55,927 nucleotides of DNA from a virus. The notes below the pieces were generated by a model. It made no database searches. It was not told the DNA's origin and worked only from the letters and a program-made list of their open reading frames with translations. The stretch covers positions 1 through 55,927 of IMG/VR virus record IMGVR_UViG_3300042389_000953. One strand, 5' to 3'. A program made the translations under genes and the position numbers. Positions 41,197 through 55,927 of the stretch are shown here, piece after piece (positions within the stretch are counted from its first letter, which is position 1; each line of letters starts with the position of its first letter).

Positions 41197-41223
41197 CAGC
41201 CCAACTCCTCGCTGTAAAACGCG

Positions 41224-41421: not shown

Positions 41422-41486
41422 AAGTGGTAAGTGGTAAGTGGTAAACGTAGAGCAGGAAGCGTCGCAGCTTAGGGAAGCGCCGCGGC

Positions 41487-41930: not shown

Positions 41931-42010
41931 CAACAGTAAGGGGGTGTGGGTAAGGGGAGGCCGCACATCGTAAGTGGTATGCGGCCGGTGGTGCAGCTAA
42001 GCAGCGCAGC

Positions 42011-42358
42011 TCAGACGGGGCAGGCCGCCTCAGCCTTAGCTTCAGCCTTGGCCTTGGGCTTACGGCCGCGCTTGGCGTCGGTCTCGGGGGGCTTCGGACC
42101 AGCAATCAGGTAGCAGCCGGTGCCATCCGCCTTCTTACGCACGGAGAATTTCACCGTGGTCGAGTTGGCAGTCATCGTGCCAGCCACCTGGCTGATGGTG
42201 GTGGCGCGGTAGCCGGCCTCGGCGTCGTGCGTGTCATAGGCGACCTCGATGGCCTCACCGACCTGCAGAGCGGCAAGCGCATTCCGCAGCGGGGTCGTTT
42301 TCGATGTGCGCGTGGCACGGCCCGGCAAATCCGCAGCCGACAGAACAGAGAACGTCAT
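42011..42358 (-). CDS. Small protein with a basic tail
   Basis: 115 residues from CTTATG at 42358. The N-terminal 80 residues have a compact alpha/beta pattern (LRNALAALQVGEAIEVAY, TTVKFSVRKKADGTGCYLIA). The C-terminus is a Lys/Ala/Glu-rich tail (RGRKPKAKAEAKAEA), resembling AT-hook or histone-like tails. It may bind DNA. A similar architecture occurs in small phage transcription-related proteins. Confidence 0.55.
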   Translation of the reverse strand: MTFSVLSAADLPGRATRTSKTTPLRNALAALQVGEAIEVAYDTHDAEAGYRATTISQVAGTMTANSTTVKFSVRKKADGTGCYLIAGPKPPETDAKRGRKPKAKAEAKAEAACPV

Positions 42359-42413
42359 AAGTGGTGCGTAAGACGCATGGAAAGCAGCAGCTTAAGCATG
42401 GCACAGCTCGATG

Positions 42414-42656
42414 TCAAGCCTGGAGTCTTCCCTGCACCTGATTCTGAATGCTCTTGCGTCTAAGCGCCTGGTCTTGTGCCTCGGCCAGGTTGTAGGCCGC
42501 GGCCTCGGTCGAACGCTTGATGGCCGAGTACAGCAGCTCCCGCGCATAAGCCGTGGTACGCATCCCGGCATCCTGCGCCAGCTGCTCCAGCAGCTCCGCC
42601 CTATGCGGATCCAGCAGGAGCTGGTAATACCGCTTGCTGCCGTGCAACCTCGCCAT
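42414..42656 (-). CDS. Possible ribbon-helix-helix-type DNA-binding protein
   Basis: 80 residues from CTTATG at 42656. The sequence KRYYQLLLDPHRAELLEQLA then QDAGMRTTAYARELLYSAI reads as a strand followed by two helices, the ribbon-helix-helix order. The C-terminus is an Ala/Gln-rich helix. It is probably a regulator; no operator can be named. Confidence 0.55.
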   Translation of the reverse strand: MARLHGSKRYYQLLLDPHRAELLEQLAQDAGMRTTAYARELLYSAIKRSTEAAAYNLAEAQDQALRRKSIQNQVQGRLQA

Positions 42657-42681
42657 AAGTGGGTGTGACAATGTACTAAGC

Positions 42682-42951
42682 CTACCACCGCGCGGCGGGA
42701 TCGACGTGCTTCCGCCACGCATTGCTCTGCTGCCTCCGCGCCGAGCCGCGCTGCTTAGCGCACCCCTTCCTCACCAACCTGGCGAACTCCAAGAACTCCG
42801 CAGCCCGCTGCAGATCCGCAACGCTCGCCTGCCGCATCTCAGCCTGCAGCCACGCAACCATAATTTCGCGTCCCGTCCGCACTAAGCCGCGCCGCATCGC
42901 GCCACAAGCTAAGCAGCGCTGTACGCCGCCGCTTAGCCCGCCGCCCCACAC
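42682..42951 (-). CDS. Small basic protein downstream of the polymerase
   Basis: 89 residues if started at the GTG immediately after the polymerase stop (TAG-GTG). An ATG at 42897 gives 71 residues and starts the better part (GREIMVAWLQAEMRQASVAD, LQRAAEFLEFARLVRKGCAK). It is helical and basic, possibly DNA-binding. It overlaps nothing else on this strand except a few bases of the unused upstream part of the next gene. Confidence 0.45.
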   Translation of the reverse strand: MWGGGLSGGVQRCLACGAMRRGLVRTGREIMVAWLQAEMRQASVADLQRAAEFLEFARLVRKGCAKQRGSARRQQSNAWRKHVDPAARW

Positions 42952-44820
42952 CTACTTAGCGTCGGCCCAGGTTTTGCCGTAATTGGCCTCGGCCAGCGCC
43001 GGGATTTCACCCAGCCATAAGCTCTCTGCGCTCTCCATGCACTCCTGCAATATCCCCATCCACTTGGTTTCCTCCCCTTCCTTGACAAGCAGCAAAATTT
43101 CGTCGTGAATAACAGCGGCTAAGCGGGCCTCAGCTTCGCTGGCACGGCTTAGTGCGGGCCACAGCTTGCCCAACGCACACTTCAAAATCGCCGCACCACT
43201 CCCCTGCACCGGCGTATTACACCTGACAGTAACCCTATTCATATCCCCAGGCAAGTAACGCCGCATCCCACTAAGCGGAATGCGAGTCTCAGCCCACTTG
43301 TTCCCGCTCGACTCGTAACTAATTTGTGCATTGCGCTTTTGCCACTCGTTAACGCCGCTATAAGTGCTGTGGAACGTATCCCTAATCTGCTGCGCTTCCT
43401 CAAGCGTCATAGTAATACCCATAGCACCGGCATAATCCCTAAGACCACTCGCACCCGCGCCATACAACAAGCCGAAATTTGCAGACTTAGCCACTTGCCT
43501 GCGTTGTTTCATCTCCTTAGCGTCCTCAACCGGCTCGCCATAAATCGCCTCAGCGGTAATGGTGTGCAAGTCCTTGTCTGCCTGGAACGCTGCAATCATC
43601 GTTTCGTCCTCGGCAACGGCCGCGGCCAAACGCAGCTCCATTTGCCCGAAGTCAGCGCACACAAAGTTCCAGCCTTCCGGCGCCTCAGCGGCAACCCTAA
43701 ACGAATTGTCACGCGGAACTTGCTGCAGATTCGGCTCAACACAACTCATGCGTCCAGTTTCTGTACCCAACTGCATATAACCAGAACGAATAAAGCTATC
43801 GTCTTGCTGATGCTTTATGAGTGAGCACACCATCTGCCTACGCTTCTCGGCACGCTTCCACAGCAAGTAGGTCTGGACAACAGCGTGGTCCGCTGCGTAA
43901 GTACGAAGCGACTTCCGTGACGCACTCGGTTTACCGTCCAACAACGGAACAGTCCCAAGAAGCGTTGTAAATTTCGCAATAAGCTGCTTCGGCGAGTTCA
44001 GGTTGAATCCCGCCGGCTTCTTCGTACCAAGCCTTACAGCGCCTTCTGCCCTGGCCCGCAGGTTGAAGCTTCCGTCCTCGTCGCGGGGCAGCTTCTCCGA
44101 CTCCGGCAGCGCCGCATCCAAATCCTCGACGAACTTTTTGCCGTACATCTCGATGTCGCGCTCCAGCGATTCCTGCACCTCGACAAGCTTCTGCCGATTG
44201 AACGGGAGCCCGGTGCGCTGCATCTGCGCCATGGCCGGCAAGCACTTGCACTCCAACCCGAACGCTGCCGTGAGGCGTGCCACCGCCAACCGTTCCTGCA
44301 GCACTAGATCGAGATCGAGCAGCGCCTGCACGTCCGCTGCCGCGTAGGCCAGCTGTTCCTTGCTCAGGACTGGTGCGCTCCAATCGCTCGCCTGCAACTC
44401 CTTGCTGAGCGTGCGCTCCAGGTAACGCTCCACCACAAACCCCAAGCCATGCTTGAGATTCGGAACACCATTGGTAAGCAGCTTAGATGCCAACATTGTG
44501 CAGTAAGTCACGCCGTTGGGAATAATGCCGTGCTCCTGCAACCAACCCAAATCAAACACCGCATTGTGCGCGATGTAAGTGCGCGGTGTAGCAAAAAAGT
44601 CCCTTACTTGCTGCCACCCCTTCTCATCCAGCTCCCAGCAGTCAATAACAACAATGGCGCGGTCGCGGGCACCGATCTGCAGCAACCGCAGCCCACCAAC
44701 AACCGGCTGCAGCCCAGTGGTCTCTGAGTCAAACGCCACCGTCACCGACGCGGCAACCTTCCACAAATGCTCAACACCAAACAGAACAGGCGGCATAGCC
44801 GACGCAACAGGCTCAGACAT
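42952..44820 (-). CDS. DNA polymerase, family A, with 3'-5' exonuclease
   Basis: 622 residues. The exonuclease domain has D31 and E33 (AFDSETTGL), N86...D90 (HNAVFDLGWL) and the AAADVQALLDLD third motif. The polymerase domain has motif A VCADFGQMELR (about residue 388), motif B KSANFGLLYG (about 443) and motif C VIHDEILLL (about 568). Motif A has Phe-Gly where E. coli Pol I has Tyr-Ser. There is no 5'-nuclease domain, as in T7-type polymerases. It should be the phage replicase with the adjoining primase-helicase. Confidence 0.95.
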   Translation of the reverse strand: MSEPVASAMPPVLFGVEHLWKVAASVTVAFDSETTGLQPVVGGLRLLQIGARDRAIVVIDCWELDEKGWQQVRDFFATPRTYIAHNAVFDLGWLQEHGIIPNGVTYCTMLASKLLTNGVPNLKHGLGFVVERYLERTLSKELQASDWSAPVLSKEQLAYAAADVQALLDLDLVLQERLAVARLTAAFGLECKCLPAMAQMQRTGLPFNRQKLVEVQESLERDIEMYGKKFVEDLDAALPESEKLPRDEDGSFNLRARAEGAVRLGTKKPAGFNLNSPKQLIAKFTTLLGTVPLLDGKPSASRKSLRTYAADHAVVQTYLLWKRAEKRRQMVCSLIKHQQDDSFIRSGYMQLGTETGRMSCVEPNLQQVPRDNSFRVAAEAPEGWNFVCADFGQMELRLAAAVAEDETMIAAFQADKDLHTITAEAIYGEPVEDAKEMKQRRQVAKSANFGLLYGAGASGLRDYAGAMGITMTLEEAQQIRDTFHSTYSGVNEWQKRNAQISYESSGNKWAETRIPLSGMRRYLPGDMNRVTVRCNTPVQGSGAAILKCALGKLWPALSRASEAEARLAAVIHDEILLLVKEGEETKWMGILQECMESAESLWLGEIPALAEANYGKTWADAK

Positions 44821-44832
44821 AGATCCAAAGCG

Positions 44833-44866
44833 ATAAAGAGACGCCCCAGCCTAAGCCTGGAGCGCC
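44833..44866 (-). terminator. Hairpin between primase-helicase and polymerase genes
   Basis: On the minus strand GGCGCTCCAG and CTGGGGCGTC pair over 10 bp with two G-U pairs, followed by TCTTTAT. It may attenuate transcription into the polymerase gene. Confidence 0.5.
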
Positions 44867-44902
44867 CCTTACCCTAGCACACCGTAAGCGGTGGCGCCAC
44901 GC

Positions 44903-45124
44903 TCACACGCTCGGCGACTTGCCCACCCTGCCGCTGGTCCGTGGCGTCGATCCAGGCGGCTTGGCATCCTCGCGCCAGCCATGCGGCGGCTCTGGCATCC
45001 ACGCCGCCAACTGCACAAGGAACGCCGTCAACCGCTCCTCGTCCTGCTTGGCCTTGCGCAGCGCTTTACTCACGTTGCGTCCCACGAGTCTCGCCTCCGT
45101 GGGGGTAGCGCCGCTCACTTCCAC
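44903..45124 (-). CDS. Small protein after the primase-helicase
   Basis: 73 residues, GTG start overlapping the end of the primase-helicase by 10 bases. The helix (LVGRNVSKALRKAKQDEERL) is charged and the C-terminus is Pro-rich and probably disordered. No family recognised. The overlap and the lack of any other gene between primase and polymerase support it. Confidence 0.45.
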   Translation of the reverse strand: MEVSGATPTEARLVGRNVSKALRKAKQDEERLTAFLVQLAAWMPEPPHGWREDAKPPGSTPRTSGRVGKSPSV

Positions 45125-47622
45125 AGCTCCTCCGCCTCCCGCCGCAGCCGCTCCAGCTCCTCGACGCTCCGCTCAGTGGGCTCAGCGAGCCTCGCGCGTA
45201 TAGTTTCCGTATCTGTCCCATCAGGGCCACTTCGCTTGCGCTGCAACGGCTTTGCAATGGGACACACTTCCTCTTTTTCGGGAAGTGTCCCATCTGTCGT
45301 ACCAGCACCGCTCACGTTTTCCACAACCACACCCTCACCTGTGGAAAACTCCTCATCGCTAATGGGACACACCCCCTCGTTTTCACCCCCCTGTCCCATT
45401 GCAGAATCCGTTCCAGCACAAGGATTTTGCCCTATGGGACACGTTCTACCTACTTCTACGCGCGAGGAACTTAAAACCGCCTGGTAATGGTGGAGCGCCT
45501 TACCCCCTTTCTCGGCCTGAGTCTTATCTGCGACACAGATGAGACCGCGCTTCTCCAAGCGCTGCAGCGCCTTCCTGATCGCTGTGACCCTGCCGCCCAC
45601 GATCGGATCGGCGTTCAGCTCTGCCCTGGTACGCGCCTCGGGGTAGATCACGCGCAACCGCGCCAGCACGCGGTCGGTGATGGCGCTGGGGCCTGTCTCC
45701 GCTGGATCGACCTCTGGCACGTAGTCGCTGAGGGTGAAGGTCAGGTCGTCTTCCAGCTTCAGCAGCAGCCCTGTGCCCCCACGACCGCTCCGCGACTTCT
45801 CGATGGCTATGAGACGCGCATTCGCCCCCACAGCCTCCTGCTGGCGCTCTGAGGGCCGTTTCAGCGCCCACACCTCATCCACGGCATCCCTAATTGCCGA
45901 AGTCCCCCTAAAGCCGCCCTGCTTATTCGCGTGGTGAATAATTACGATGGTTGCTGCCGGAAACAGCACACCATTATTTCGCGTAAGCCAATACAGCGGC
46001 GTAGCAAAATCACTCTTGTTCTCATCGAACGCCTTACCACCACTACACCCAATAAGCGAATCAATCACCACAAGGCTTGGCCGTAGCTCCTCCATAAGGC
46101 TTATGAACTGGGCGTAGCGCTGGAGCGCCCAGTCGGTGCGGATCGTGACCGGCGCGTGAGCGGGCATCTCGACCTCCTGGAGCTGCTCCTGGAGCTGCAC
46201 CAGCGGCTGGTCGCCGTTCAGCAGCAACACAGGCCCCTGCTGGACCGGCACATGCTTCCCGCGAATGACGAACGGCAGCCCCATCGCAACATGCTTCGCC
46301 ATCGTCCACGCCGCCATTGACTTACCATCGCCACCAGCCCCATAAATGAGTACAACAGACGGGCTAGGCAGCAGATCAGGAATGAGGTACTTACGCTCAA
46401 ACTCCTGCTCCATAAGTTGCGCGATCGACATGGTATCTGTCTGACCCTCGTACTGGATCTGATCAACCAGCAACCGCTCCAGCGCCTCCTTATCCCTATA
46501 CCCCGACTCCACCGCCAGCGCGTGCATCTTGTAATTCAGTTCCGCCGGATTATCAATCTGCAACACCTCCTTAGCCCGCCTAATTACTTCGGCGAAGTCG
46601 AGTACGACATGGCGGTAAGCCTGAGCCTGTGTGCTCTCGACCTCCTCAAGCGTTGCCCTGCTGGAGTCCTGAAATCGCAACCTCCCTGGGTCGTACTCAT
46701 CCGCCAGCTTCACCAAGCTGCCCAGCCCCAGGTTCCCCGGCTTCCCGACCCGCTCCACAAGGCGCGGCCACTTCTCCTCGCACGGGTTCCCCTTCGTCCA
46801 GTCGTCTTCAAACGCCGGGTCTTGCTCGCTCCATGCCGTCCACAGCGCCAAGCCCATCTCACTTGGCAGCGCCTCAGCCACCATCGCGCCGATCTGCCAC
46901 CACTGATCCTCACTCCCCCTGCCCAGGTGGGGCATGACCTGCAGGCAGTCGTGAACGATCTCTGCAACCTCATCGCTGGTCCGACCCGAGAAGTCCAGGC
47001 CGCGGCGATTCTTCACCAGGCCCTGCACCGGCGCATCCGCCTGCTTCCGCGCCCGCATCTCAGCGAGCAACCACTCCGGCGCATCGGGAATCGCATCAAA
47101 GCTCCCCGAAACCAGCTTGTAGTGCCCCGGCTTGGCCTTACCGTCCCTCGACCCCGGATAAGCACCGGCAATTACGCCCTGCATCCCCCATAAGATTTCG
47201 TAGCCGCTGTTTCCTTGGCTAAGCGTCATACCGCGCACTAAGGCGCGTTGATCGGCTGGCACGCGAAAAACGAACTTGGCCGCATTCGGTTTTGTGCTTC
47301 GCACTTGCGGAGCATCGGCAATGGAATCGCCCCACTTCTTAAGCAGCGCAGCAAGATTCGCATCGACATCCAGAATTACGATGCCGTCGCTGCGGATGCC
47401 TGTGAACAGGCCCACGGCCTGGAACGTCTCGGGCTTCTGCTCCAGCAGCAACGCCACATCCTCCGGGTTGAACCGGCGGTGGTGGGACGCCTCATGTGGC
47501 GCCTTCCCTTGGCTCTCCGACTCGTGCTTCCCGAACTTGACCCCTTTGGCGTAGATGGGGGCGTAAGCGGGGCCTACAGGCAGTGTTCGCACGAAGCGAA
47601 TCAGCCCTTGGTGCGTGTTCAT
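45115..47622 (-). CDS. Primase-helicase: Prim-Pol domain plus RepA/RecA-like ATPase
   Basis: 835 residues. The N-terminal Prim-Pol domain has the metal pair D85/D87 (IVILDVDANL), RSTKPNAAKFVF and YEILWGMQGVIAGAYPGS. A PriCT-like region follows (about 210-310). The RepA-like ATPase has Walker A GAGGDGKS (428-435) and Walker B LVVIDSL (about 515). A winged-helix-like segment (TRAELNADPI, ALQRLEKRGLI) comes before a polar tail from about residue 720. The gene's DNA for that tail holds the candidate origin at 45214-45441. It should prime and unwind DNA for the polymerase. Confidence 0.9.
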   Translation of the reverse strand: MNTHQGLIRFVRTLPVGPAYAPIYAKGVKFGKHESESQGKAPHEASHHRRFNPEDVALLLEQKPETFQAVGLFTGIRSDGIVILDVDANLAALLKKWGDSIADAPQVRSTKPNAAKFVFRVPADQRALVRGMTLSQGNSGYEILWGMQGVIAGAYPGSRDGKAKPGHYKLVSGSFDAIPDAPEWLLAEMRARKQADAPVQGLVKNRRGLDFSGRTSDEVAEIVHDCLQVMPHLGRGSEDQWWQIGAMVAEALPSEMGLALWTAWSEQDPAFEDDWTKGNPCEEKWPRLVERVGKPGNLGLGSLVKLADEYDPGRLRFQDSSRATLEEVESTQAQAYRHVVLDFAEVIRRAKEVLQIDNPAELNYKMHALAVESGYRDKEALERLLVDQIQYEGQTDTMSIAQLMEQEFERKYLIPDLLPSPSVVLIYGAGGDGKSMAAWTMAKHVAMGLPFVIRGKHVPVQQGPVLLLNGDQPLVQLQEQLQEVEMPAHAPVTIRTDWALQRYAQFISLMEELRPSLVVIDSLIGCSGGKAFDENKSDFATPLYWLTRNNGVLFPAATIVIIHHANKQGGFRGTSAIRDAVDEVWALKRPSERQQEAVGANARLIAIEKSRSGRGGTGLLLKLEDDLTFTLSDYVPEVDPAETGPSAITDRVLARLRVIYPEARTRAELNADPIVGGRVTAIRKALQRLEKRGLICVADKTQAEKGGKALHHYQAVLSSSRVEVGRTCPIGQNPCAGTDSAMGQGGENEGVCPISDEEFSTGEGVVVENVSGAGTTDGTLPEKEEVCPIAKPLQRKRSGPDGTDTETIRARLAEPTERSVEELERLRREAEELWK
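45214..45441. other. Candidate replication origin: six alternating octamers around an inverted DnaA-box pair
   Basis: TGTCCCAT occurs at 45214, 45286 and 45392, and its complement ATGGGACA at 45257, 45362 and 45434, so orientation alternates strictly. Start-to-start distances are 43, 29, 76, 30 and 42, nearly a mirror image. In the centre lie GTTTTCCACA (45316-45325) and TGTGGAAAAC (45340-45349). TTTTCCACA is the form I know for cyanobacterial DnaA boxes. The octamers fall in different codon phases of the primase gene (Cys-Pro-Ile, Met-Gly-Gln, Asp-Gly-Thr), so protein constraint does not explain them. Lambda also has its origin inside a replication gene. Confidence 0.6.
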
Positions 47623-47626
47623 GCGC

Positions 47627-47632
47627 TACAAT
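47627..47632 (+). promoter_or_regulatory. Candidate -10 element of a short leader transcript
   Basis: TACAAT follows GC directly and overlaps the primase start region on the other strand. A transcript from here would meet the terminator at 47654-47688 after about 50 bases. Confidence 0.4.
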
Positions 47633-47653
47633 CCTATGCGTGAAGAGGCATCG

Positions 47654-47688
47654 CGCCCCTCGACAGCCCAGCTGTGAGGGGCGTTTTT
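47654..47688 (+). terminator. Rho-independent terminator or attenuator before the 47820 gene
   Basis: CGCCCCTC (47654-47661) pairs with GAGGGGCG (47676-47683), with an inner ACAGC/GCTGT stem, then TTTTT. It lies upstream of the plus-strand operon, with no plus-strand gene before it, so attenuation of a leader is more likely than ordinary termination. A 13-codon frame (ATG 47636) ends inside the hairpin. Confidence 0.75.
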
Positions 47689-47819
47689 CACTGTAAGCCC
47701 TTGGCCTTGAAAGCGCAACGATGTACTACGCCATGGGTTGCCAGCCGTGCTACGCTGCGTAAGCACTCGGCACCGCCCCTCCGGGCACCGCCTCCTGCAT
47801 CCACACCCCACAACCTCTT

Positions 47820-48398
47820 ATGGGACTCCTTTCCAAGACCGCCCAAGCCGCCGTCGCTGGCGGTGGCGCCTACCTGAACCCCGGCAAGATCGCCGCGGGC
47901 TCGGCCGTCCGCTTCTGCCTGCTCAGCGAAGAACCGCTTGAGTTCTACGAGTGCTGGGGCGAAGGCGCCGACGGCAAGGCCAAACCCTTCCGCTTCGACT
48001 CCGAGCCCAGCCCCGACGACATCGCGCTGGCCATGGGCGACTTCAAGCGCCGCATGAACCGCGAGGGCAACGGCTTTGAGGCTGTCAAGTTCTGTCTCGC
48101 CATCCCCTGCTACAACTTTGAGGCAGCTCAGGTGCAAGTCCTGCAGCTCAGCCAGAAGTCGATCATCCGCGAACTCGACGCGGTAAGCCAGATGGAGGAC
48201 TACTCCGACATCCTGGCCATCGACTTCCTGCTCGGCAAGGAGGGCAGCGGCCTGAACACCGAATACAAGCTCACCCCCGTCCCCCGCAAGAAGGGTGCCG
48301 ACAAGGCCATCGCCGAAGCCTGGGAAGAGACCCGCTCCGCCGGCTTCGACATCAGCAGGCTGCTGGACGGCGCCGATCCCTTCAAGCCCGCCGAATAA
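47820..48398 (+). CDS. Single-stranded DNA-binding-like protein
   Basis: 192 residues from CTTATG. The pattern (a K/G-rich start, GSAVRFCLLSEEPLEFYECW, KPFRF, FCLAIPCYNFEAAQVQVLQL then SQKSIIREL, YKLTPVPRK) resembles the OB-fold single-strand-binding proteins of cyanophages, including the LQLSQKSII strand-helix element. The C-terminus is acidic. It opens the plus-strand replication operon next to a nuclease. TAAG motifs are rare in it, as in other highly expressed genes here. Confidence 0.6.
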   Translation: MGLLSKTAQAAVAGGGAYLNPGKIAAGSAVRFCLLSEEPLEFYECWGEGADGKAKPFRFDSEPSPDDIALAMGDFKRRMNREGNGFEAVKFCLAIPCYNFEAAQVQVLQLSQKSIIRELDAVSQMEDYSDILAIDFLLGKEGSGLNTEYKLTPVPRKKGADKAIAEAWEETRSAGFDISRLLDGADPFKPAE

Positions 48399-48448
48399 GC
48401 TGCGGCACCGCTAAGCGTAAGCTGCTGCACACATAAGCTGATGTGCGG

Positions 48449-48454
48449 TAGATT
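48449..48454 (+). promoter_or_regulatory. Candidate -10 element of a second short leader transcript
   Basis: TAGATT lies 36 bases before the terminator at 48490-48521. A five-codon frame (ATG 48476, MSTHEE-stop) starts after it and ends in the hairpin. The layout repeats that at 47627-47688. Confidence 0.3.
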
Positions 48455-48489
48455 CACCCTTACGCTTAGTTGGGTATGAGTACGCATGA

Positions 48490-48521
48490 GGAGTAAGTGT
48501 TGCACCACTTACTCCTTTTTT
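48490..48521 (+). terminator. Strong Rho-independent terminator
   Basis: Perfect 10-bp stem GGAGTAAGTG (48490-48499) / CACTTACTCC (48506-48515), a 6-nt loop, then TTTTTT. It ends the transcript of the 47820 gene or acts as a leader attenuator for the nuclease gene. Confidence 0.9.
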
Positions 48522-48547
48522 GTGTAAGCTGTTACAGCTACGTTGCG

Positions 48548-49378
48548 TTGCTGTCGTTGTCCACTCTTGATCCCACCGAAGCACTAAGCGGCTTAGCTAA
48601 GTGGAAGCTGGAGCGTGACGACGAAAGTGACCCTAATGGGCGTATTTACCGCGATAAGCAGGGTGAAATTTACCATAGCGTTACCCGTATTCTTAAAGAG
48701 ACCAGTAATAGCAAGGCGGCGTTGGAAGCTTGGGCCGCCCGCTTAGGCGAAGAACGCGCCGCCCAGGAGCGCGACACCGCAGCGCAACGCGGCACGCTCA
48801 CCCACAACTGCGCCGAGTACCTGCTGCGCACCGCCAAGCGCATGGCCGACTCCACCGCTAAGCGCCGCAACTCCTGGTACACGAAATCAGACGGCCTAGG
48901 CCGCGCTCCGGCTCCTCTCACCAGATGGGCACTTACCCAGGTGCTGCCCAGCGTCCCTAAGGCCGGTCTTAGTGCTGCCGGCTATCGCCGCGGCTTGCTC
49001 GGCTGGATAAGCGAAAACGTAACCGCAATCCACGCCATTGAATTTAGCGTGCATCATCCTGCAGGTTTCGCCGGCACCTGCGACGGACTAATCGACTATA
49101 AAGGTAAGGGGCCTTTCGTCGCAGACTGGAAAACCTCCTTCAACAAACGCTCCGAAGAACTCCTTACCGACTACACCGACCAGATCGGCGCCTACAGCCT
49201 CGGCCTACGCCACCTAACCGGCATCCAAGCCGTAGGCGGCCTCATCGTCGTAGCACGCCGCGCCGGTAAGCCGGATGTGCGCGAACTAAGCGCCTTGGAA
49301 GTGCGTGGCGCCGAATGCCGCTACTTAGAGCGCTGCGAAGCCTACTTCGATGCGTTGCATAAGCAGCTAAGCAGCTGA
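48548..49378 (+). CDS. RecB-like PD-(D/E)XK nuclease
   Basis: About 276 residues if started at TTG 48548; TTG 48557 is as likely, and the open frame extends into the terminator at 48497. The N-terminus has YHSVTRILKETSNSKAALEAW and RGTLTHNCAEYLL, as in RecB/Cas4-family phage exonucleases. The core is FAGTCDGLIDYKGKGPFVAD then WKTS (D...DxK), with a TDQIGAYSLGL motif after it. It could process DNA ends for recombination or degrade host DNA. Confidence 0.8.
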   Translation: MLSLSTLDPTEALSGLAKWKLERDDESDPNGRIYRDKQGEIYHSVTRILKETSNSKAALEAWAARLGEERAAQERDTAAQRGTLTHNCAEYLLRTAKRMADSTAKRRNSWYTKSDGLGRAPAPLTRWALTQVLPSVPKAGLSAAGYRRGLLGWISENVTAIHAIEFSVHHPAGFAGTCDGLIDYKGKGPFVADWKTSFNKRSEELLTDYTDQIGAYSLGLRHLTGIQAVGGLIVVARRAGKPDVRELSALEVRGAECRYLERCEAYFDALHKQLSS

Positions 49379-49414
49379 GCGGTTGCGCAGCGTACGGCGA
49401 TAAGTCTTGTCACC

Positions 49415-49453
49415 TAAAATGGTTGGAGCTGCGGCGTAACAGCGCCCAGCTCC
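49415..49453 (+). promoter_or_regulatory. Promoter-like element and structured leader
   Basis: TAAAAT (49415-49420) is followed by a hairpin: GGAGCTG (49425-49431) pairs with CAGCTCC (49447-49453), plus a GGCG/CGCC inner stem. No T run follows, so this looks like a stable leader for the 49481 gene. Confidence 0.4.
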
Positions 49454-49480
49454 CGGATCACTCACCGAAATTGAGCAACC

Positions 49481-50242
49481 ATGGATATTCAAGCAAACCT
49501 CGGCGGCCTCTGGACCTGCGATCTCGGTGAGATCCGCATGACACCCCAGGGACAGCCCAGCGTTTTCGACATGATCAAGGTGCTTGGGGGGAGTAGCAAC
49601 CCCAGACGCGACTGGGCGCGTATCACTGAGTCCCACCCTGAGGTTGTACCAAAAACGGACAACCTCAAGTTCCCCGGCCCCGGCCAGCGTGAAACCCCGA
49701 TCGCCCGCACCAAGGAGGACGCCTACTACATCCTCGGCTTGCTGCCTGGAGCGGTCGGCCGGAAATACCGCGAGCAGGCCGCTGAACTGTTCAGCCGGTT
49801 CCTTGACGACCCCGCCTCAGTTGCGTCAGCCGCTGTCGAGCGGATGTCTGACGAGGAGCGCGATCGGCTTGAAGCCCGCCTAAAGGGAAAACGTACCAGG
49901 CATGTGTTTACAGATGTGCTTAAAGATCATGGAGTAGTGCAAGTGGGATACGGGAACTGCACTAATGCGGTTTATGTGCAAATACTTGGAGCTACCGCAC
50001 GACAGCTAAAAGTAGGAATTGCCGCCACTAAAAACCTACCCGTGCAGCGCGTAAACCCCCGCGATCACTTCTCGGTACAGCAGCTCGGCGACGTTGAAAC
50101 CGCAGAGCGTATTGCAGCCGGCCAAATTCGCCGCCACTCCGCGCACGGAAACACTGCCGTAGAGCACGTAGTCCTCCACAGCGCCGCCTACACACGTCGC
50201 CTTCTCGACGGCGATATTGACATACCCGGCCTAAGCCACTAA
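49481..50242 (+). CDS. Antirepressor-like (BRO/Rha-like) protein
   Basis: 253 residues. The N-terminal half (SVFDMIKVLGG, WARITESHPEVV, KFPGPGQRETPIA, AYYILGLLPGAVGRKYREQA) matches a domain found in phage antirepressor-type and cyanobacterial proteins. The C-terminal half (VFTDVLKDHGV, GYGNCTNAVYVQILGATARQ, NLPVQ) resembles the BRO C-terminal domain. Such proteins bind DNA or inactivate repressors. No repressor is visible in the window, so the target may be host or prophage encoded. Confidence 0.55.
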   Translation: MDIQANLGGLWTCDLGEIRMTPQGQPSVFDMIKVLGGSSNPRRDWARITESHPEVVPKTDNLKFPGPGQRETPIARTKEDAYYILGLLPGAVGRKYREQAAELFSRFLDDPASVASAAVERMSDEERDRLEARLKGKRTRHVFTDVLKDHGVVQVGYGNCTNAVYVQILGATARQLKVGIAATKNLPVQRVNPRDHFSVQQLGDVETAERIAAGQIRRHSAHGNTAVEHVVLHSAAYTRRLLDGDIDIPGLSH

Positions 50243-50278
50243 GCTGGTTGGCGTGCTCCTCCTCCGGGGCGGTTAGGT

Positions 50279-50318
50279 CCAACTCCCAGACGTTTTGCGG
50301 CGTGGGGGGAGTTGGGTT
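50279..50318 (+). terminator. Terminator, first of a tandem pair
   Basis: CCAACTCCC (50279-50287) pairs with GGGAGTTGG (50307-50315), followed by GTTTGTTT. Confidence 0.65.
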
Positions 50319-50329
50319 TGTTTCTGAGA

Positions 50330-50358
50330 GACCTCCCGGTTGGCGCCGGGGGGTCTTT
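50330..50358 (+). terminator. Terminator, second of a tandem pair
   Basis: GACCTCCCGG (50330-50339) pairs with CCGGGGGGTC (50346-50355) with one G-U pair, then TTTCGCTTT. With the preceding hairpin it makes a double stop after the antirepressor-like gene. Confidence 0.8.
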
Positions 50359-50427
50359 CGCTTTGTTGGCTCAGCGCTGCTTAGCACCCGCACCCCTTAG
50401 CCTCTTAGCACTGCAGCGCCCCCACTT

Positions 50428-51120
50428 ATGGCTCGCACAATCGAGTTCGACGTGGAGCGCATCTTCCGTAAGCTGAATGTGCTGGAAGGTACGCAGATCA
50501 AATACGCCGCTAAGCGGACCATGGCTCGCTTCGGCTATGAGGCCCGCGAGTACCTTGTAATGAAGATGGTAGGTAGCTTTAAGAATCCCGTTGACTACAC
50601 ACTACAGTCACCGCTATACGATAAGCAGCTAATTGAAACACCTAACAGCGTCGCCGTAAGATTATACATTAGCACTGATAGCTCTAAAGGTAATGCGCCA
50701 ACCTCCTACCTTTACCCGGTGGATCGCGGTAGCGCATCCAACGAGGCCTACTTAGGCCGCTTTGCACGCGGCTTGGCTAAGACTGGCGTAACGACTAAGT
50801 TTCCGGTGCCGTATAAGCAAGGTTCTAAAGTACAGCGCAATAAATTCGGCAATATGGAAGGTAGCCAGTACCAAGAGGTGCTAAAAGCGGTGCAGCGGAA
50901 AGGTGGAACGATCTTCGCCCTGCCGAACGGCTCCCCAGGCGGCCTGCTGCCTCCCGGCATCTACAAACGCGAGGGCCGATCCGCCTTCCTCCTCTTCGCG
51001 CTCCTCAACAGCACTCCTACCGTCTACTCCCCATTCGACTCCTACAACGCCGTCCGCCTTCTGGCCAACCAACGCCTCCCTAAGCTGATAGGCGAAGAAC
51101 TGGCCAAAGCCCTGCGCTAA
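50428..51120 (+). CDS. Tail completion (gpZ-like) structural protein, displaced
   Basis: 230 residues from CTTATG. The pattern IKYAAKRTMARFGYEAREYL, then YLYPVDRGSASNEAYLGRFA, KFGNMEGSQYQEVLKAV and LLPPGIYKREGRSAFLLFAL resembles minor tail/tail completion proteins that are usually encoded between head connectors and tail genes. Here it sits alone among replication and accessory genes, after a double terminator. Alternatively it could be an unrelated DNA-associated protein; confidence in the family is moderate. Confidence 0.5.
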   Translation: MARTIEFDVERIFRKLNVLEGTQIKYAAKRTMARFGYEAREYLVMKMVGSFKNPVDYTLQSPLYDKQLIETPNSVAVRLYISTDSSKGNAPTSYLYPVDRGSASNEAYLGRFARGLAKTGVTTKFPVPYKQGSKVQRNKFGNMEGSQYQEVLKAVQRKGGTIFALPNGSPGGLLPPGIYKREGRSAFLLFALLNSTPTVYSPFDSYNAVRLLANQRLPKLIGEELAKALR

Positions 51121-51252
51121 GCTGCGCCGCTAAGCTGCGCCGCTGCGCTGCTGCGCCGCTTAGCTTACGTTTTACAACACCCCTTACACGACCCCTTACC
51201 CCGCTTCAGCTTACGTGTGCTACGCTTACTCGTGTTCAACCCCTTAGCACCG

Positions 51253-51984
51253 ATGCTTACACCCCTTATCCGCCTGGCCGACGCCGCCTACCGCGCTGGC
51301 GTCCCCCTTATGTCAGACGCCGCCTTCGATCGCCTGGCCAGCCTCGCCCCCAACGCCCTGCCCCCACTTTCCACGCTGCTTAGCCTCGACTGCCACCCCG
51401 ACCCGCACGACTGGCTGGAGCGCAACCCCGGCCCCTACGCCGTCCAACTCAAAGCCGACGGCGTAAGCGTCAACCTCGTCTACCTCGACGGCCGCTTCAG
51501 CCACGCCCACCTACGCAGCGGCCGTGACTGCACCGATGCTGCCCTCCGCGCTGGTGCGCTGCTCGACCTCCCCGGCTCCCCCGTGGGCCGCGTCGAAGTC
51601 CGCTGCGAGGCCATGGCGTTCGCCTACACAAACCCCGGCAAGCCCCCCACCCGCAACGCCTGCGCCGCCGCCCTCCGCCGTAAGGGGCTGCAGGACAAAC
51701 TCAACCTCAGCCTGCTCGCTTTCGACATCACCGGCATCGACGCCATCACCACACACTGCGGCGCCCTCACTTGGCTCAAGTGCGCCGGCTTCGCCACCCT
51801 CGACGCCCTGGAAGCCGCCACCGCCACCGAGGTGCTTGAGCTGTTCGACGCCTTCTGCGTCTGCCAGCCCACCCTGCCCTTCCCCTGCGACGGCATCACC
51901 GTCAAGCTCGACTCCAAGATCCGCCAACGCCAGCTCGGCAACGACTCCCGCGCCCCTAAGTGGGCGATAAGCATGAAGCCGTAA
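51253..51984 (+). CDS. Minimal NAD-dependent DNA ligase-like adenylation domain
   Basis: 243 residues from ATG 51253. Ligase motifs are visible in order: KADG (K67, motif I), a VEVRCEA segment (E119, motif III), NACAAALRRK resembling the LigA NPRNAAAGSLRQ stretch, CDGITVKLDS (motif IV) and KWAISMKP (motif V). The OB fold, zinc finger, helix-hairpin-helix and BRCT domains of normal LigA (about 670 residues) are missing, as is a clear Ia domain. It may seal nicks poorly alone, or have another adenylation or nucleotide role. Confidence 0.75.
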   Translation: MLTPLIRLADAAYRAGVPLMSDAAFDRLASLAPNALPPLSTLLSLDCHPDPHDWLERNPGPYAVQLKADGVSVNLVYLDGRFSHAHLRSGRDCTDAALRAGALLDLPGSPVGRVEVRCEAMAFAYTNPGKPPTRNACAAALRRKGLQDKLNLSLLAFDITGIDAITTHCGALTWLKCAGFATLDALEAATATEVLELFDAFCVCQPTLPFPCDGITVKLDSKIRQRQLGNDSRAPKWAISMKP

Positions 51985-52044
51985 GCCGCGCAGCGCTAAG
52001 CCGCGGCACTAAGTCGCCCCAACGTCCTACGCACGCACCTACTC

Positions 52045-52446
52045 ATGTCCTTAGCTCGTCAGCTCTATCCAAACGCCTTTCAGCGTAAGTACCAGCGCAT
52101 TGACAATTACGAACCCATAATCAACCATTTAGGCAAACCCTTAGTACACACAGACACAGATCCTTATCAAGGAGACGCGCTAGTCCTACTTCGCACAGAT
52201 ACCGGCTACGGCTTTCTTGTATTCGGTTATGGCAGCTGCTCAGGTTGCGACGCCCTGCAAGCCTGCGATTCCTACGAAGACTTAGAGTCTTTAATCGACG
52301 ACCTTATCGCGTCCATGAAAACCTTCGACACCTTGGCCGATGCGCAACTTCACATCGCAAACAACAACTACCACGAATTGCGCTACCATTACCATCTAAA
52401 GGAATGGCAGGAGTTTCGCTCCGCCTGCCTAAGCCTCGACGCCTAA
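52045..52446 (+). CDS. Cyanophage-type protein of unknown function
   Basis: 133 residues. A central GYGSCSGCDALQACDSYEDLE segment with three cysteines and a tyrosine- and histidine-rich C-terminus (NNNYHELRYHYHLKEWQEF) mark it. The SGCDALQA pattern is one I associate with small proteins encoded near cyanophage replication genes. A metal site is possible. The stop lies in a 14-bp direct repeat (CTAAGCCTCGACGC, twice). Confidence 0.6.
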   Translation: MSLARQLYPNAFQRKYQRIDNYEPIINHLGKPLVHTDTDPYQGDALVLLRTDTGYGFLVFGYGSCSGCDALQACDSYEDLESLIDDLIASMKTFDTLADAQLHIANNNYHELRYHYHLKEWQEFRSACLSLDA

Positions 52447-52501
52447 GCCTCGACGCCTAAGCCGCGGCACTGCCCCACACCACGTACCCACACTTAGTCT
52501 C

Positions 52502-52738
52502 ATGAGTCTCACCCCCATGCCTGGCACGCCCCTCACCCCGGAGCGCCGCCCCCTTACACCCACCGCCGCCTTACGCGAGGCCAAACTCCGCCTAGCCAAC
52601 GACATCGAGAACCTCCTCGACACCTTCACTAAGCTGACGGACCTAAGCGTAAGTGAAATCTATGTAGAGCAAGTGCTCATGCACACGCCTCACCCCACAT
52701 TCAACCGCCACCTCGTACGCCTGCGCATAAGTCTGTGA
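52502..52738 (+). CDS. Small protein of unknown function
   Basis: 78 residues. A Pro/Thr-rich N-terminus (MSLTPMPGTPLTPERRPLTP) precedes a helix (LREAKLRLANDIENLLDTF) and a short strand end (HLVRLRISL). The first 14 bases from the CTCATGAG core recur at 53345-53358. It is coupled to the next gene by GTGA. Confidence 0.55.
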   Translation: MSLTPMPGTPLTPERRPLTPTAALREAKLRLANDIENLLDTFTKLTDLSVSEIYVEQVLMHTPHPTFNRHLVRLRISL

Positions 52739-52884
52739 ACCGCAAACTCCTCACAATCTGCGACGTAATCTGCTTCGCAATCACGGCTGGAACGATCGCC
52801 CTGCTCGCCTGGGGCATCACCACCTACCCCTCCCCCACCCACAGCGGCACACAACCCCTAAGCCGCCCCACACCCACGCGCTAA
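52735..52884 (+). CDS. Small membrane protein
   Basis: 49 residues, GTG start overlapping the previous stop (GTGA). One transmembrane segment (VICFAITAGTIALLAWGITT) and a Pro/Thr-rich tail. Function unknown. Confidence 0.5.
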   Translation: MNRKLLTICDVICFAITAGTIALLAWGITTYPSPTHSGTQPLSRPTPTR

Positions 52885-52938
52885 GCGCTACGCCGCCCAA
52901 CTGCCCCTTACCCCTTACCCCTTACCACGCCGCAGCTT

Positions 52939-53115
52939 ATGACCCTCCTACCGTTTACCTGCAGCGCGTCCCGTCCTGGTGCGCCACTTATCCGCATCGG
53001 CATCCTGGCCCGCTCCAAGAGCGACGCCCACACCACCGCCACCGAACTCTTCCCCGCCTATACCATCGGCCTTGTCGAACTCAGCCCCGAGTGGACCGAT
53101 AAGCACGACGCCTAA
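52939..53115 (+). CDS. Small protein of unknown function
   Basis: 58 residues from CTTATG (MTLLPFTCSASRPGAPLIRI then GILARSKSDAHTTATELFPA). Preferred over the longer overlapping frame at 52979 because of the start context and the TAAGC stop typical of this genome. No domain recognised. Confidence 0.5.
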   Translation: MTLLPFTCSASRPGAPLIRIGILARSKSDAHTTATELFPAYTIGLVELSPEWTDKHDA

Positions 53116-53153
53116 GCTTCCACGCATCCAAGCACCTACGCCGCCCCTTACTT

Positions 53154-53351
53154 ATGACAGCATCCAACCTGCAACTTACGCAGCTTAAGCGTTACTGGTT
53201 CCAGATCGAGTCCACTAACCAAATCCAGTGCGTGTGGGCCGTAAGCTTTACCGAGGCCAAAGACAAAGCCGCTAAGCGTTACCTACCGCAGTGGCGTGGC
53301 ATCAGCTGGATCGACGTAAGCGGCGGCACCTCCACAGGGCGAGACTCATGA
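53154..53351 (+). CDS. Small protein of unknown function
   Basis: 65 residues from CTTATG. The sequence KRYWFQIESTNQIQCVWAVS then FTEAKDKAAKRYLPQW reads as two strands and a helix, a small alpha/beta fold. The stop overlaps an ATGA that opens a 16-codon frame beginning MSLTP, like the gene at 52502. Confidence 0.55.
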   Translation: MTASNLQLTQLKRYWFQIESTNQIQCVWAVSFTEAKDKAAKRYLPQWRGISWIDVSGGTSTGRDS

Positions 53352-53403
53352 GTCTCACACCCCAGCGCCTAAGCTCCGCCACTCCCCTTACCCCTTAGCA
53401 CCT

Positions 53404-53712
53404 ATGCCGCGCCTCCTTACCCGCCACCAACTGCTAAGCCTCTACTACACCATCCCCACCACCTCCACTTACGAAGACCGCTTAGTCGCCTATGGCAATG
53501 CGGTCCAGTCCTGGCTAAGCAGCCCCGAATCGGAAGATCCGCGCAGCCCGCTCTCCTCCCTCTGCTTACCGCAGCGCATTTACGGCGCCCTCCGCCGCGC
53601 CGGCTACACCTACGTCGATGACGTGCGCAACGCCACCGACGCCCAACTGCTCAGCGCCCGCGACTTCGGCCCTAAGGGGTTGCGCCTGCTCCGCCAAGCG
53701 CTAAGCGGCTAA
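53404..53712 (+). CDS. RNA polymerase alpha-CTD-like protein
   Basis: 102 residues. The C-terminal ~52 residues (LPQRIYGALRRAGYTYVDDV, then NATDAQLLSARDFGPKGLRL) align with the C-terminal domain of the RNA polymerase alpha subunit: the helix after LPxR, an ATDAQLL helix and the FGPKG helix-hairpin-helix turn. By my alignment Arg265 and Gly296/Lys298 equivalents are kept while Asn268 and Ser299 are replaced by Gly. The N-terminal half is unrelated. It could bind UP elements or transcription factors in competition with host polymerase. Confidence 0.65.
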   Translation: MPRLLTRHQLLSLYYTIPTTSTYEDRLVAYGNAVQSWLSSPESEDPRSPLSSLCLPQRIYGALRRAGYTYVDDVRNATDAQLLSARDFGPKGLRLLRQALSG

Positions 53713-53753
53713 GCGGCTAAGAGGCGGTGGAACGCTCACCGCTGAGCCTGTGT

Positions 53754-53759
53754 TACAAA
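53754..53759 (+). promoter_or_regulatory. Candidate -10 element before the DUF932-like gene
   Basis: TACAAA within TGTTACAAAATC, about 100 bp before the GTG at 53860 and after the TAAGC stop of the alpha-CTD-like gene. No clear -35. Confidence 0.3.
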
Positions 53760-53859
53760 ATCTTACGTGGCCTGGCTGTCCAGCCTAAGTGGGCGGCGAT
53801 GCCTTAATGTACTTGCACAGCGCACCAATAGCGCTCCCCCACCCCTTCACTTAAACACC

Positions 53860-54990
53860 GTGACTTACCTGCTCACCAACCAGGCCACCCACTCCGACAC
53901 CACCGAGGCCCGCAGGGTCTCACGGATGCAGCGCCACGAGATCACCAGCGGCTACAGCCGTGACCGCCACCTCCTGCTCACCTCGCCGCCGCAGATCGCA
54001 CTGCAGGCCGGTGGTACGCCCATCGGCCCCGACGCCACACCCCGCCAAGCCTTCGCCGCAGCCGGCGCCGACTTCGCCGTAAGCGCGAAGCCGATCGCAT
54101 TCGACAACGCTGTCGAGTACGGCGGCGATGCCCCTGAGTCCGACTGGCGCTGCGTAAGCAGCCACAAGGCGATCGTCCGCGAGGACATCGGCCGCTGCCT
54201 GGGCATTGTGGGTCGTAATTACACCCCCGTTCAGAACGAAGCGCTCATCGGCCTCTTCGACTTCCTGCACGAAGACGCCAAGATCGACAACATCGTCACC
54301 CTGCGCCACGGCGCTAAGACGATCGTGACCGCATCCCTGGCGATCGAAGGTGAGGTGAAAGAGGGCGACACCATCCGCCGCTACCTGCACGCCTTCAACA
54401 GCTTCGACGGCAGCAGCAGCCTTGGCGTGTTCTTCAGCGACATGCGCATGGTCTGCAGCAACCAGATCTCTTACATCACCGGCAAGGGCGCCCGCAAAGC
54501 CTCCAAGGCTGGCGAGGGCCTGCTGATGCGCCACACCTCCGGTGTGCAGGAGTTCGCCAAGCGACTGCCCCAGCTCATCGACCTGCAGAACCGCTGCTTT
54601 GAGCAAGACCTCGCCGAGCTGCGCCCCCTCACCACCATGCGCCTCACCACCGAGGCGGCCCGCGCCATCCTTGAGGCCACCTTTGCCGACAAGCTGAGCA
54701 CCCCCGTCACCGACAAGGACAGCGGCAAGAAGCGCCAGCGCACCCTCGACGACCTCACCGAAATCCCCCTCATCCGTTCCCACTACGGCAAGGGCACCGG
54801 CATCGGCATCGACACCGCCGACAAGTCCGTCTGGAACATGCTCCAAGCCATCACCCAGAACCAAACCCACGACCTGGGCCGCGGCGCCACCGACCTGGAC
54901 CGTGCCCGTGCCCGCCTGGAATCCCTCTGGGGCGGCGACTCCGCCAAGCGCATCGCCCGCGCTAAGCAGGCGTGTCTCGCCGCTATCTAA
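53860..54990 (+). CDS. DUF932/phage-plasmid-like protein (TIGR03299-type)
   Basis: 376 residues from GTG 53860; the frame is open further upstream without support. The sequence follows the family: DWRCVSSHKAIVREDIGRCL, IVGRNYTPVQNEALIGLFDF, GAKTIVTASLAIEGEVKEGD, LHAFNSFDGSSSLGVFFSDM and RMVCSNQ. Members occur in phages and plasmids near recombination genes; a role in DNA metabolism is assumed but unproven. GC-rich coding with few TAAG motifs suggests good expression. Confidence 0.75.
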   Translation: MTYLLTNQATHSDTTEARRVSRMQRHEITSGYSRDRHLLLTSPPQIALQAGGTPIGPDATPRQAFAAAGADFAVSAKPIAFDNAVEYGGDAPESDWRCVSSHKAIVREDIGRCLGIVGRNYTPVQNEALIGLFDFLHEDAKIDNIVTLRHGAKTIVTASLAIEGEVKEGDTIRRYLHAFNSFDGSSSLGVFFSDMRMVCSNQISYITGKGARKASKAGEGLLMRHTSGVQEFAKRLPQLIDLQNRCFEQDLAELRPLTTMRLTTEAARAILEATFADKLSTPVTDKDSGKKRQRTLDDLTEIPLIRSHYGKGTGIGIDTADKSVWNMLQAITQNQTHDLGRGATDLDRARARLESLWGGDSAKRIARAKQACLAAI

Positions 54991-55054
54991 GCCGTAGCGC
55001 TGCTTAGCCGCAGCGCTACTTAGCCGCAGCGCTGCTTAGCCGCAGCGCTACTTA
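54991..55054. repeat. Tandem repeat, 4 x 16 bp
   Basis: Four copies of GCCGCAGCGCTRCTTA, with R alternating G, A, G, A and one T in the first copy. Each unit has a self-complementary AGCGCT and a CTTA. It fills most of the gap between the DUF932-like gene and the 55083 gene. Confidence 0.85.
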
Positions 55055-55082
55055 GCCCCACTTACCCCTCGCCCTACCAACC

Positions 55083-55370
55083 ATGTCTACGTCCCTCCTC
55101 TACTTAGCCGACCACTTCACCTACGAGCAGCGCATAAGCCCGCCGCCGACCGCCTACGGCCGCACCGCCTCGGGCTACGGCAACAGGATCGCCACCGATT
55201 GGCTGGTACGCATAAGCGGCAGCACTGGTACGCAGCCCGCTCTCTACGGCGGCGACTGCCGCTGGCGCCGCGTCTACGCGACCTGCTGGAGCAACTCCGC
55301 CTCCCTCTGGGTAAACGTGCCGGGGCATCGCTTCTACTTCCGCGACTGCGACCTAAGCCACACGGCGTAA
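55083..55370 (+). CDS. Small conserved phage protein
   Basis: 95 residues. The pattern TAYGRTASGYGNRIATDWLV, then CRWRRVYATCWSNSASLWV and YFRDCDL matches a short protein family found in many phages, with an SGYGxKxPT start and an RWRRVYxxCxSN core. No function is known to me. It is the last gene of the window and ends 15 bp before a hairpin. Confidence 0.65.
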   Translation: MSTSLLYLADHFTYEQRISPPPTAYGRTASGYGNRIATDWLVRISGSTGTQPALYGGDCRWRRVYATCWSNSASLWVNVPGHRFYFRDCDLSHTA

Positions 55371-55384
55371 AACGCTGGTACGAC

Positions 55385-55409
55385 AGCGCTCCACTAAGCC
55401 TGGAGCGCT
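55385..55409 (+). terminator. Hairpin after the last gene
   Basis: Perfect 9-bp stem AGCGCTCCA / TGGAGCGCT with loop CTAAGCC. A TTTT run follows only 12 bases later, so termination efficiency is uncertain. Confidence 0.5.
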
Positions 55410-55435
55410 AAGCTAATAAGTTTTAAGTTGCGCTT

Positions 55436-55544
55436 GGAAAAATTTGAGACATGCGCACTGCCGGTTCTTTAAGCAAAATTTTACGCACGCCTAAGCCGAA
55501 AAATTTAGGAACTTGCGGGGGGTCGGTTCTTAAGGCACTTTTTC
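55436..55544. repeat. Imperfect AT-rich direct repeat, about 48 bp twice
   Basis: Copy 1 (55436-55483) and copy 2 (55497-55544) share GAAAAATTT near the start, CGGTTCTTTAAG/CGGTTCTTAAG in the middle and a final run of T. This is the most AT-rich DNA near the right end and could be a melting region, promoter pair or part of the packaging site. Confidence 0.6.
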
Positions 55545-55630
55545 ACACACACAAACTTACACAACTTCTCGCACCCCCTCACCCACTCCGGCAGCGAGGC
55601 GGCGCCCCGCGCCCCCACAGCTCCCGCCGT

Positions 55631-55723
55631 GTACACCTGTACTATAGTACAAGTGTACGCTAGTACAGCCGTACCTATAGTACAGCCGTACCGTAGTACA
55701 GCCGTACGCTAGTACAGCCGTAC
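55631..55723. repeat. GTAC-rich palindromic repeat array
   Basis: Twelve GTAC tetramers occur in 93 bp. The second part is built from units with the core TAGTACAGCCGTAC (four copies). A perfect 14-bp palindrome TGTACTATAGTACA lies at 55638-55651. It is non-coding. It could bind a dimeric protein many times over, or fold into a cruciform. Confidence 0.85.
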
Positions 55724-55767
55724 TGCCCCTGCCGGCCCATGCGGTCATGCCGGTAGCGTTATAAGGG

Positions 55768-55927
55768 GTTAGGTAGGCTAACCCGCTGAGAGTTAGGTGA
55801 GCTAACCCGCTGAGAGTTAGGTGAGCTAACCCGCTGAGAGTTAGGTGAGCTAACCCGCTGAGAGTTAGGTGAGCTAACCCGCTGAGAGTTAGGTGAGCTA
55901 ACCCGCTGAGAGTTAGGTGAGCTAACC
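55768..55927. repeat. Tandem repeat, 6.7 x 24 bp, running to the window end
   Basis: Six full copies and a 16-bp partial copy of GTTAGGTGAGCTAACCCGCT-GAGA; the first copy is slightly different. Each unit contains the inverted repeat GTTAG-GTGAG-CTAAC. The core GCTAACCCGCTGAGAG resembles the core of the 34-bp repeats at 190-314. The array is cut by the window edge. Confidence 0.92.

Follow-up and report, generated by a model that had tools for sequence, protein, structure and literature searches.

An orientation-free TAAG word iterated in one lineage of phages, likely of picocyanobacteria

Introduction

Why does a gap of 132 bp between two phage genes hold eight copies of the tetramer TAAG or its complement CTTA? 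The gap, at 51121-51252, lies in the viral record IMGVR_UViG_3300042389_000953, which was analysed here over its entire 55,927 nucleotides (the window). A sequence-only reading had drawn attention to this cluster and proposed that the word is concentrated in quiet DNA while the most highly expressed genes avoid it, either as an iterated signal comparable to HIP1 of cyanobacteria or as a motif with a cost in abundant mRNA. The features discussed below are listed in Table 1, and about 380 related viral loci served for comparison.

Table 1. Genes, modules and the TAAG-dense leader of the window
Feature	Coordinates	Strand	Remarks
Head/packaging module (terminase, portal, protease-capsid, first part of tape measure)	1..15000		TAAG-rich, M1 1.6-2.6
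Protease-capsid fusion	5080..8253	+	17 sites in 5080-7029, 2 in 7030-8253
Tail-tip/host-specificity module (lambda gpL/K/I/J-like, collagen-like, lectin-like proteins)	15001..33000		No clear excess
Lysis, sigma, replication and early module	33001..55927		TAAG-rich, M1 1.95-3.8
Sigma-70 factor	37984..38865	-	Top NCBIfam model TIGR02997 (cyanobacterial, RpoD-like), with a score under its cut-off
PolA-family DNA polymerase	42952..44820	-	TAAG-rich phages form one branch on its tree
Primase/helicase (PriCT_2, AAA_25)	45115..47622	-	Unrelated DUF3987 helicase in its place in TAAG-rich G025
Weakly SSB-like protein	47820..48398	+	phrog_1607, E 3.5e-6; conserved in the TAAG-rich lineage
PD-(D/E)XK exonuclease	48497..49378	+	Identity of at least 64% in TAAG-rich loci, at most 57% in TAAG-normal loci
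phrog_1924 minor-tail-like protein	50428..51120	+	In the exonuclease set, together with the ligase-like gene only in TAAG-rich loci; also in TAAG-normal L272
Intergenic leader with 8 TAAG/CTTA sites	51121..51252		Entire gap between 50428-51120 and the ligase-like ORF
Small NAD-dependent-ligase-like protein, 243 aa	51253..51984	+	Adenylation domain with KADG motif

TAAG is the most over-represented tetramer of the window

The initial counts were confirmed. One TAAG and seven CTTA lie at 51121-51252, where the base frequencies of the window, taken over 129 start positions, predict about 0.7, and the other dense stretches that had been named hold 4 sites at 3063-3164 (39/kb), 3 at 5016-5079 (47/kb) and 29 at 52440-53400 (30/kb), against 10.9/kb overall. 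Across the window, which has a GC content of 58% and in which no tRNA genes were found, there are 326 TAAG and 285 CTTA, or 611 sites. With strands pooled, the observed/expected ratio is 2.06 under a zero-order model and stays above one after Markov correction, at 1.89 for the first order (dinucleotide) and 1.43 for the second (trinucleotide); under all three models TAAG/CTTA ranks first among the 136 strand-symmetric tetramers by over-representation.

The excess also persists when synonymous codons are shuffled gene by gene, with 465 sites seen and 263 expected (1.77-fold, z 15), and by this measure too TAAG tops all tetramers. The hand-made ORF list used for these shuffles reads 37156-37423 (267 bases) out of frame; repeating the shuffle on an automatic ORF set gave the same answer (1.72-fold, z 12.8, rank 1). 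Sense-strand counts are about equal (239 TAAG, 226 CTTA), each in excess, and all five possible codon placements of the word are over-represented: 2.45-fold in phase 1 and 1.65-fold in phase 2 for TAAG, and 1.64-, 1.50- and 1.65-fold in phases 0, 1 and 2 for CTTA. In the core modules the density is 21.8 sites/kb in intergenic DNA and 10.4/kb in coding DNA; after Markov correction the difference is modest (2.72 vs 2.12).

The tetramer itself appears to be the unit, since 5-8-mers containing TAAG add little over maximal-order Markov expectation. An extended motif (GCTAAGC, CCCCTTAC) was rejected for this reason, CCCCTTA still being common upstream of starts. No helical phasing or regular spacing of the sites was found.

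Given the intergenic density, the probability of eight sites at exactly 51121-51252 is 0.008, and a null model with class densities typically yields 8-9 sites in the densest 132 bp of the genome. Against the background of the genome-wide and intergenic excess the cluster is thus unexceptional, and we rejected an operator array at this place because its count is within what intergenic density yields. The motif was chosen after viewing the sequence, which could speak for a statistical or assembly artefact; we consider this explanation next to negligible, as the word ranks first of 136 under several models and dozens of contigs from this lineage, each assembled independently, show the excess while relatives lack it.

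Start, stop and leader contexts of the word

Several local contexts of the word stand out. About 20 genes end in TAAGC, as had been noticed, and most TAA stops read TAAGC. CTT directly precedes the start codon (CTTATG) at 5077, 10463, 11979, 29255, 47817, 50425 and 53151, and also at the minus-strand starts 38865 and 42358, while CCCCTTA lies shortly upstream of the starts at 5080, 35307, 51253, 53154 and 53404. These sequences could possibly form a translation-initiation or promoter context. CCCCTTA is further found three times head-to-tail at 52904-52924 and as doublets at 53384 and 51180/51192, and an intergenic stretch at 41208-41257 consists of two tandem 25-nt copies (96% identical) with CGCTAAGGGGT inside.

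The ATG at 51253 is probably the start of the ligase-like ORF, since conservation in the alignment of relatives extends across this codon. Two relatives at 77% identity have kept the elements ACACCCCTTAC and CCCCTTAGCACC-ATG-CTTACACCCCTTATC of the leader before it, a conservation that may reflect a local regulatory use of the TAAG word. An Rfam search for structured RNA gave no match.

These start and stop contexts and conserved leader elements speak for an mRNA-level or regulatory motif, whether it acts through start and stop context, through a promoter-like CCCCTTA or through a cost in abundant mRNA. We nevertheless regard such a motif as a very improbable cause of the excess: the majority of sites are intragenic, with near-equal numbers on the two strands and all phases represented, the capsid gene shows no avoidance beyond codon choice (see below), and the start and stop contexts can arise locally from the general excess.

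Modular distribution along the genome

The proposed avoidance of the word in highly expressed genes, those for capsid and tail tube, could not be upheld. The capsid domain (7030-8253) holds 2 sites where shuffling predicts 1.5, and 10694-11857 holds 2 where it predicts 2.4, so that there is no avoidance beyond codon choice; the first 2 kb of the same protease-capsid gene (5080-7029) hold 17 where 5.6 are expected. An expression cost was rejected on the capsid counts, which match synonymous expectation, and the mRNA-cost motif also fails on the finding that TAAG and CTTA are alike in excess on the sense strand. Nor is an enrichment in quiet DNA supported: the TAAG-poor part of the genome is the exchangeable tail-tip/host-specificity module.

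Indeed, the real contrast is modular, with head, lysis and replication modules rich in TAAG and the lambda-J-like tail-tip module not. Coding M1 is 2.12 at 0-15 kb and 33-56 kb and 1.12 at 15-33 kb, where it ranges from 0.8 to 1.5 in 3-kb windows. The same pattern was replicated in five related genomes (G007, G022, G025, G031 and G010). A collagen-repeat protein (29593-31095) separates the tail-tip genes from a glycine-rich protein, after which comes a glycosyltransferase (32521-33621).

TAAG-rich backbones with lysozymes about 95% and sigma factors 99% identical bear different tail-tip types, and the tail-tip genes in such backbones have an M1 of 0.6-1.1 even next to flanks at 2.3-2.7. Outside the lineage, the tail protein of the window has its closest relative (77%) in L405, from a TAAG-poor phage with a different sigma factor. 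From these comparisons, tail-tip genes appear to be exchanged with TAAG-poor phages. Since such an exchange needs co-infection, TAAG-rich and TAAG-poor phages must have hosts in common at least sometimes. Two genomes, G012 (L182-L184) with a second terminase/portal set and G006 (L178-L179) with a second tape measure, may be chimeric assemblies or unusual mosaics and were for this reason left out of the exchange argument.

Distribution among related phages

Comparison with related phages places the TAAG excess in one lineage of uncultured viruses, with sister phages normal or depleted. Viral contigs with terminase large subunits 90-99% identical to that of the window are mostly TAAG-rich and those at 77-81% mostly depleted; a second TAAG-rich group lies around L032-L041 and L075. 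By the sigma factor, relatives of at least 63% identity are mostly rich and those below 58% poor. By the exonuclease, all nine loci of at least 64% identity are rich (M1 1.4-2.7) and no locus of at most 57% is (M1 0.57-1.14). In the longer records, synonymous shuffling gives ratios of 1.48-1.89 for the lineage, 1.2-1.6 for the second terminase group and 0.42-0.76 for other relatives together with S-LBS1, S-CBS1, S-CBS3 and KBS-S-2A. Under this control no tetramer separates rich from poor clades more strongly than TAAG. The excess, about twice expected, thus appears as a property of one lineage that is absent in close relatives.

On the terminase tree the TAAG-rich label needs five changes, whereas on the DNA polymerase tree a single branch sets the TAAG-rich phages apart (9 of 39 rows), with a support of 100/100 and recovery in 100% of bootstraps. 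The trait therefore tracks the replication backbone better than the head.

To look for the word in unrelated phages, contigs were chosen only for holding CCCCTTACCCCTTA; they had a median M1 of 0.85, and the sole strongly rich one, G031, turned out to be a relative. Two unrelated viral contigs, L216 and L276, contain runs of CCCCTTACCCCTTA with four matches each, possibly a telomere-like or iteron repeat; L276 has no TAAG excess.

The gene order of the window, with lysozyme (+), sigma (-), a minus-strand early block, a plus-strand block and the terminase, matches that of S-CBS1, S-CBS3 and S-LBS1, the best phage matches of its sigma factor include Synechococcus phages, and GATC is in excess. 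Judged by synteny, sigma type and GATC excess, the host is likely to be found among picocyanobacteria, tiny freshwater or coastal cyanobacteria. In a search of genome collections, terminase relatives were seen only in MAG contigs of doubtful origin.

The main rival to a selected, backbone-linked word is a host signature, in which the phages ameliorated towards a TAAG-rich host lineage and received the tail-tip module from phages of other hosts. That phage tetranucleotide usage generally tracks host range is the textbook expectation (PMC1360066), the TAAG bias is slow and backbone-wide, and the GATC excess and gene order common to picocyanophages indicate that host-like signatures do occur here. 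On the other hand, the swapping of tail-tip modules requires host cells shared between rich and poor phages, which argues against a pure host signature without excluding it, and the picocyanophages S-LBS1, S-CBS1, S-CBS3 and KBS-S-2A are depleted in TAAG (synonymous-shuffle ratios 0.42-0.74). We see a host signature as a real possibility, if a doubtful one.

Gain and loss at synonymous sites

Turnover was followed at four-fold sites with identical neighbours, comparing the window with relatives against matched controls. Between the window and a relative, TAAG and CTTA change less and arise more than controls in all four registers, and by the combined gain/loss effect they rank 3rd and 7th among 163 scorable words. 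With several references pooled, the TAAG-rich phages show a loss of 0.75 (95% interval 0.63-0.89) and a gain of 1.61 (1.30-1.95), the pooled loss ratio in one of the four registers, xTA|AG, being only 0.92; the TAAG-poor relatives show a loss of 1.12 (0.93-1.32) and a gain of 1.00 (0.84-1.16). These are unpolarised pairwise differences between non-independent relatives, so the intervals are optimistic.

As the control in the poor clade shows no effect, the bias cannot be put down to sequence context in general, and the lower loss together with the higher gain in rich phages means that the word is maintained now and not passively inherited. TAAG is thus a DNA-level, orientation-free and frame-free word of one lineage, currently maintained. 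Since this lineage keeps gaining and retaining it and close relatives do not, something reads or favours the word.

The reduced loss is unexpected under a simple one-way mutational bias and expected under weak selection or a two-way repair-like bias. The latter could be neutral, with the polymerase or repair of the lineage creating and protecting TAAG in a context-dependent manner, for instance by VSR-like patch repair. In line with this, the trait follows the DNA polymerase clade, and any equilibrium bias would act in all frames and in intergenic DNA. Its simple one-way form predicts normal loss, contrary to the reduced loss seen, and neither a Vsr nor a methyltransferase was detected among the Pfam-scanned proteins of the window. 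We consider a neutral bias unlikely as the origin of the excess.

Candidate readers of the word

The primase and the sigma factor are unlikely readers, because there are TAAG-rich relatives without homologues. The primase of the window has no match in TAAG-rich G031 or in L321, and with the helicase replacement in G025 it is not common to all carriers, which makes a primase recognition word improbable; a homologue of the sigma factor is absent from G031 by tblastn, making this factor an unlikely cause as well. The two genes flanking the leader were rejected as a cause: they do not suffice, as TAAG-normal L272 has both, and the first is minor-tail-like. In the ligase-like protein no OB or other domains were found beside the adenylation region, and it is possibly a minimal ligase or nucleotidyltransferase. 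The polymerase, the exonuclease and the SSB-like protein remain as candidate readers.

Two other genes were noted in passing. A 102-aa protein encoded at 53404-53712 matches the C-terminal domain of the RNA polymerase alpha subunit (Pfam E 2.3e-7). The phage encodes a sigma factor as well, and the two possibly form a transcription takeover pair. In the TAAG-poor G012, a helicase is fused to an N6/N4 DNA methyltransferase (L183:15904-18162).

Discussion

We tentatively favour, with a probability of roughly 40%, the view that TAAG is an iterated, orientation-free word under weak selection, linked to the backbone of one siphovirus lineage that most likely infects picocyanobacteria. Over the entire backbone (head, lysis and replication modules) TAAG would be maintained at roughly double the expected frequency, and the two-way bias would reflect weak selection per site with a scaled coefficient of about 0.5-1, a size that gives a 1.6-fold gain and a 0.75-fold loss. 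Such selection would act because TAAG is read in DNA by something that travels with the replication backbone, e.g. the polymerase, the SSB-like protein or exonuclease, or an interacting replication-repair protein. The tail-tip module would lack the excess because it was repeatedly swapped in from TAAG-poor phages, too recently to equilibrate.

Several points weigh against selection on a backbone-linked word. Any vertically inherited trait would show the same distribution, the lineage of the phages may coincide with one of hosts, and a mutation or repair bias that depends on context and works both ways would look like selection. The linkage to the polymerase is not proof of cause, as the whole backbone has the same history as this marker. 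A more specific proposal, that the phages themselves evolved a genome-wide, non-palindromic 4-bp word which is read in either orientation by some part of their replication and repair backbone and weakly selected at hundreds of sites, as a host-independent, phage-encoded counterpart of HIP1, seems somewhat unlikely to us. Our literature searches found no report of a TAAG word.

Why genomes should keep short words in many copies, as with HIP1, has been asked for a long time. In the present case one phage clade is strong in the word and relatives with the same proteins are depleted in it, and rich head modules can be set against freshly swapped tail tips that lack it. With countable gain and loss and this modular contrast, the phages offer a small comparative system for separating selection, mutation bias and host signature. 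On a practical level, TAAG can serve as a marker for assigning metagenomic fragments to the lineage and for dating module swaps.

Among known systems, Chi and other recombination sites are likewise short words in excess, and they can shield the DNA of phages against nucleases of the host. Chi sites have 5-8 bp and are orientation-biased, whereas TAAG has 4 bp and, by its near-equal counts (326 TAAG vs 285 CTTA; 239 vs 226 on the sense strand), shows no strand or orientation bias. The deviations in tetranucleotide usage described for phages (PMC1360066) are alike in being lineage-wide tetranucleotide biases, and differ in that here one tetramer dominates and its sign switches between close relatives, TAAG tracks the replication module and not the terminase, and synonymous turnover is two-way. 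The cyanosiphoviruses S-LBS1, S-CBS1 and S-CBS3 (PMC6157547) share with the window the order terminase-portal-capsid-tail-lysozyme followed by a minus-strand sigma and early block, the terminase of S-LBS1 being 46% identical; the genome of the window is larger, contains a PolA-family polymerase and an exonuclease, and has an excess of TAAG where theirs are depleted.

The closest parallel is HIP1 (GCGATCGC) and the other highly iterated sequences of cyanobacteria (PMC4390886). HIP1 itself occurs once in the window. Unlike HIP1, TAAG is a 4-bp word that is not palindromic, resides in a phage lineage and reaches about a 2-fold excess compared with the much larger excess of HIP; no cognate methyltransferase was seen among the Pfam-scanned window proteins. 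Its iteration through coding and non-coding DNA applies to the backbone modules and not to the tail-tip module. The suggestion of a HIP1-like iterated signal held for a word that is in excess on either strand, in each codon phase and between genes, and that one lineage maintains; it did not hold for the palindrome. TAAG is HIP1-like in behaviour only: as with HIP1, a short word is iterated above expectation in coding and non-coding DNA, in a lineage-specific manner, with other words in some relatives.
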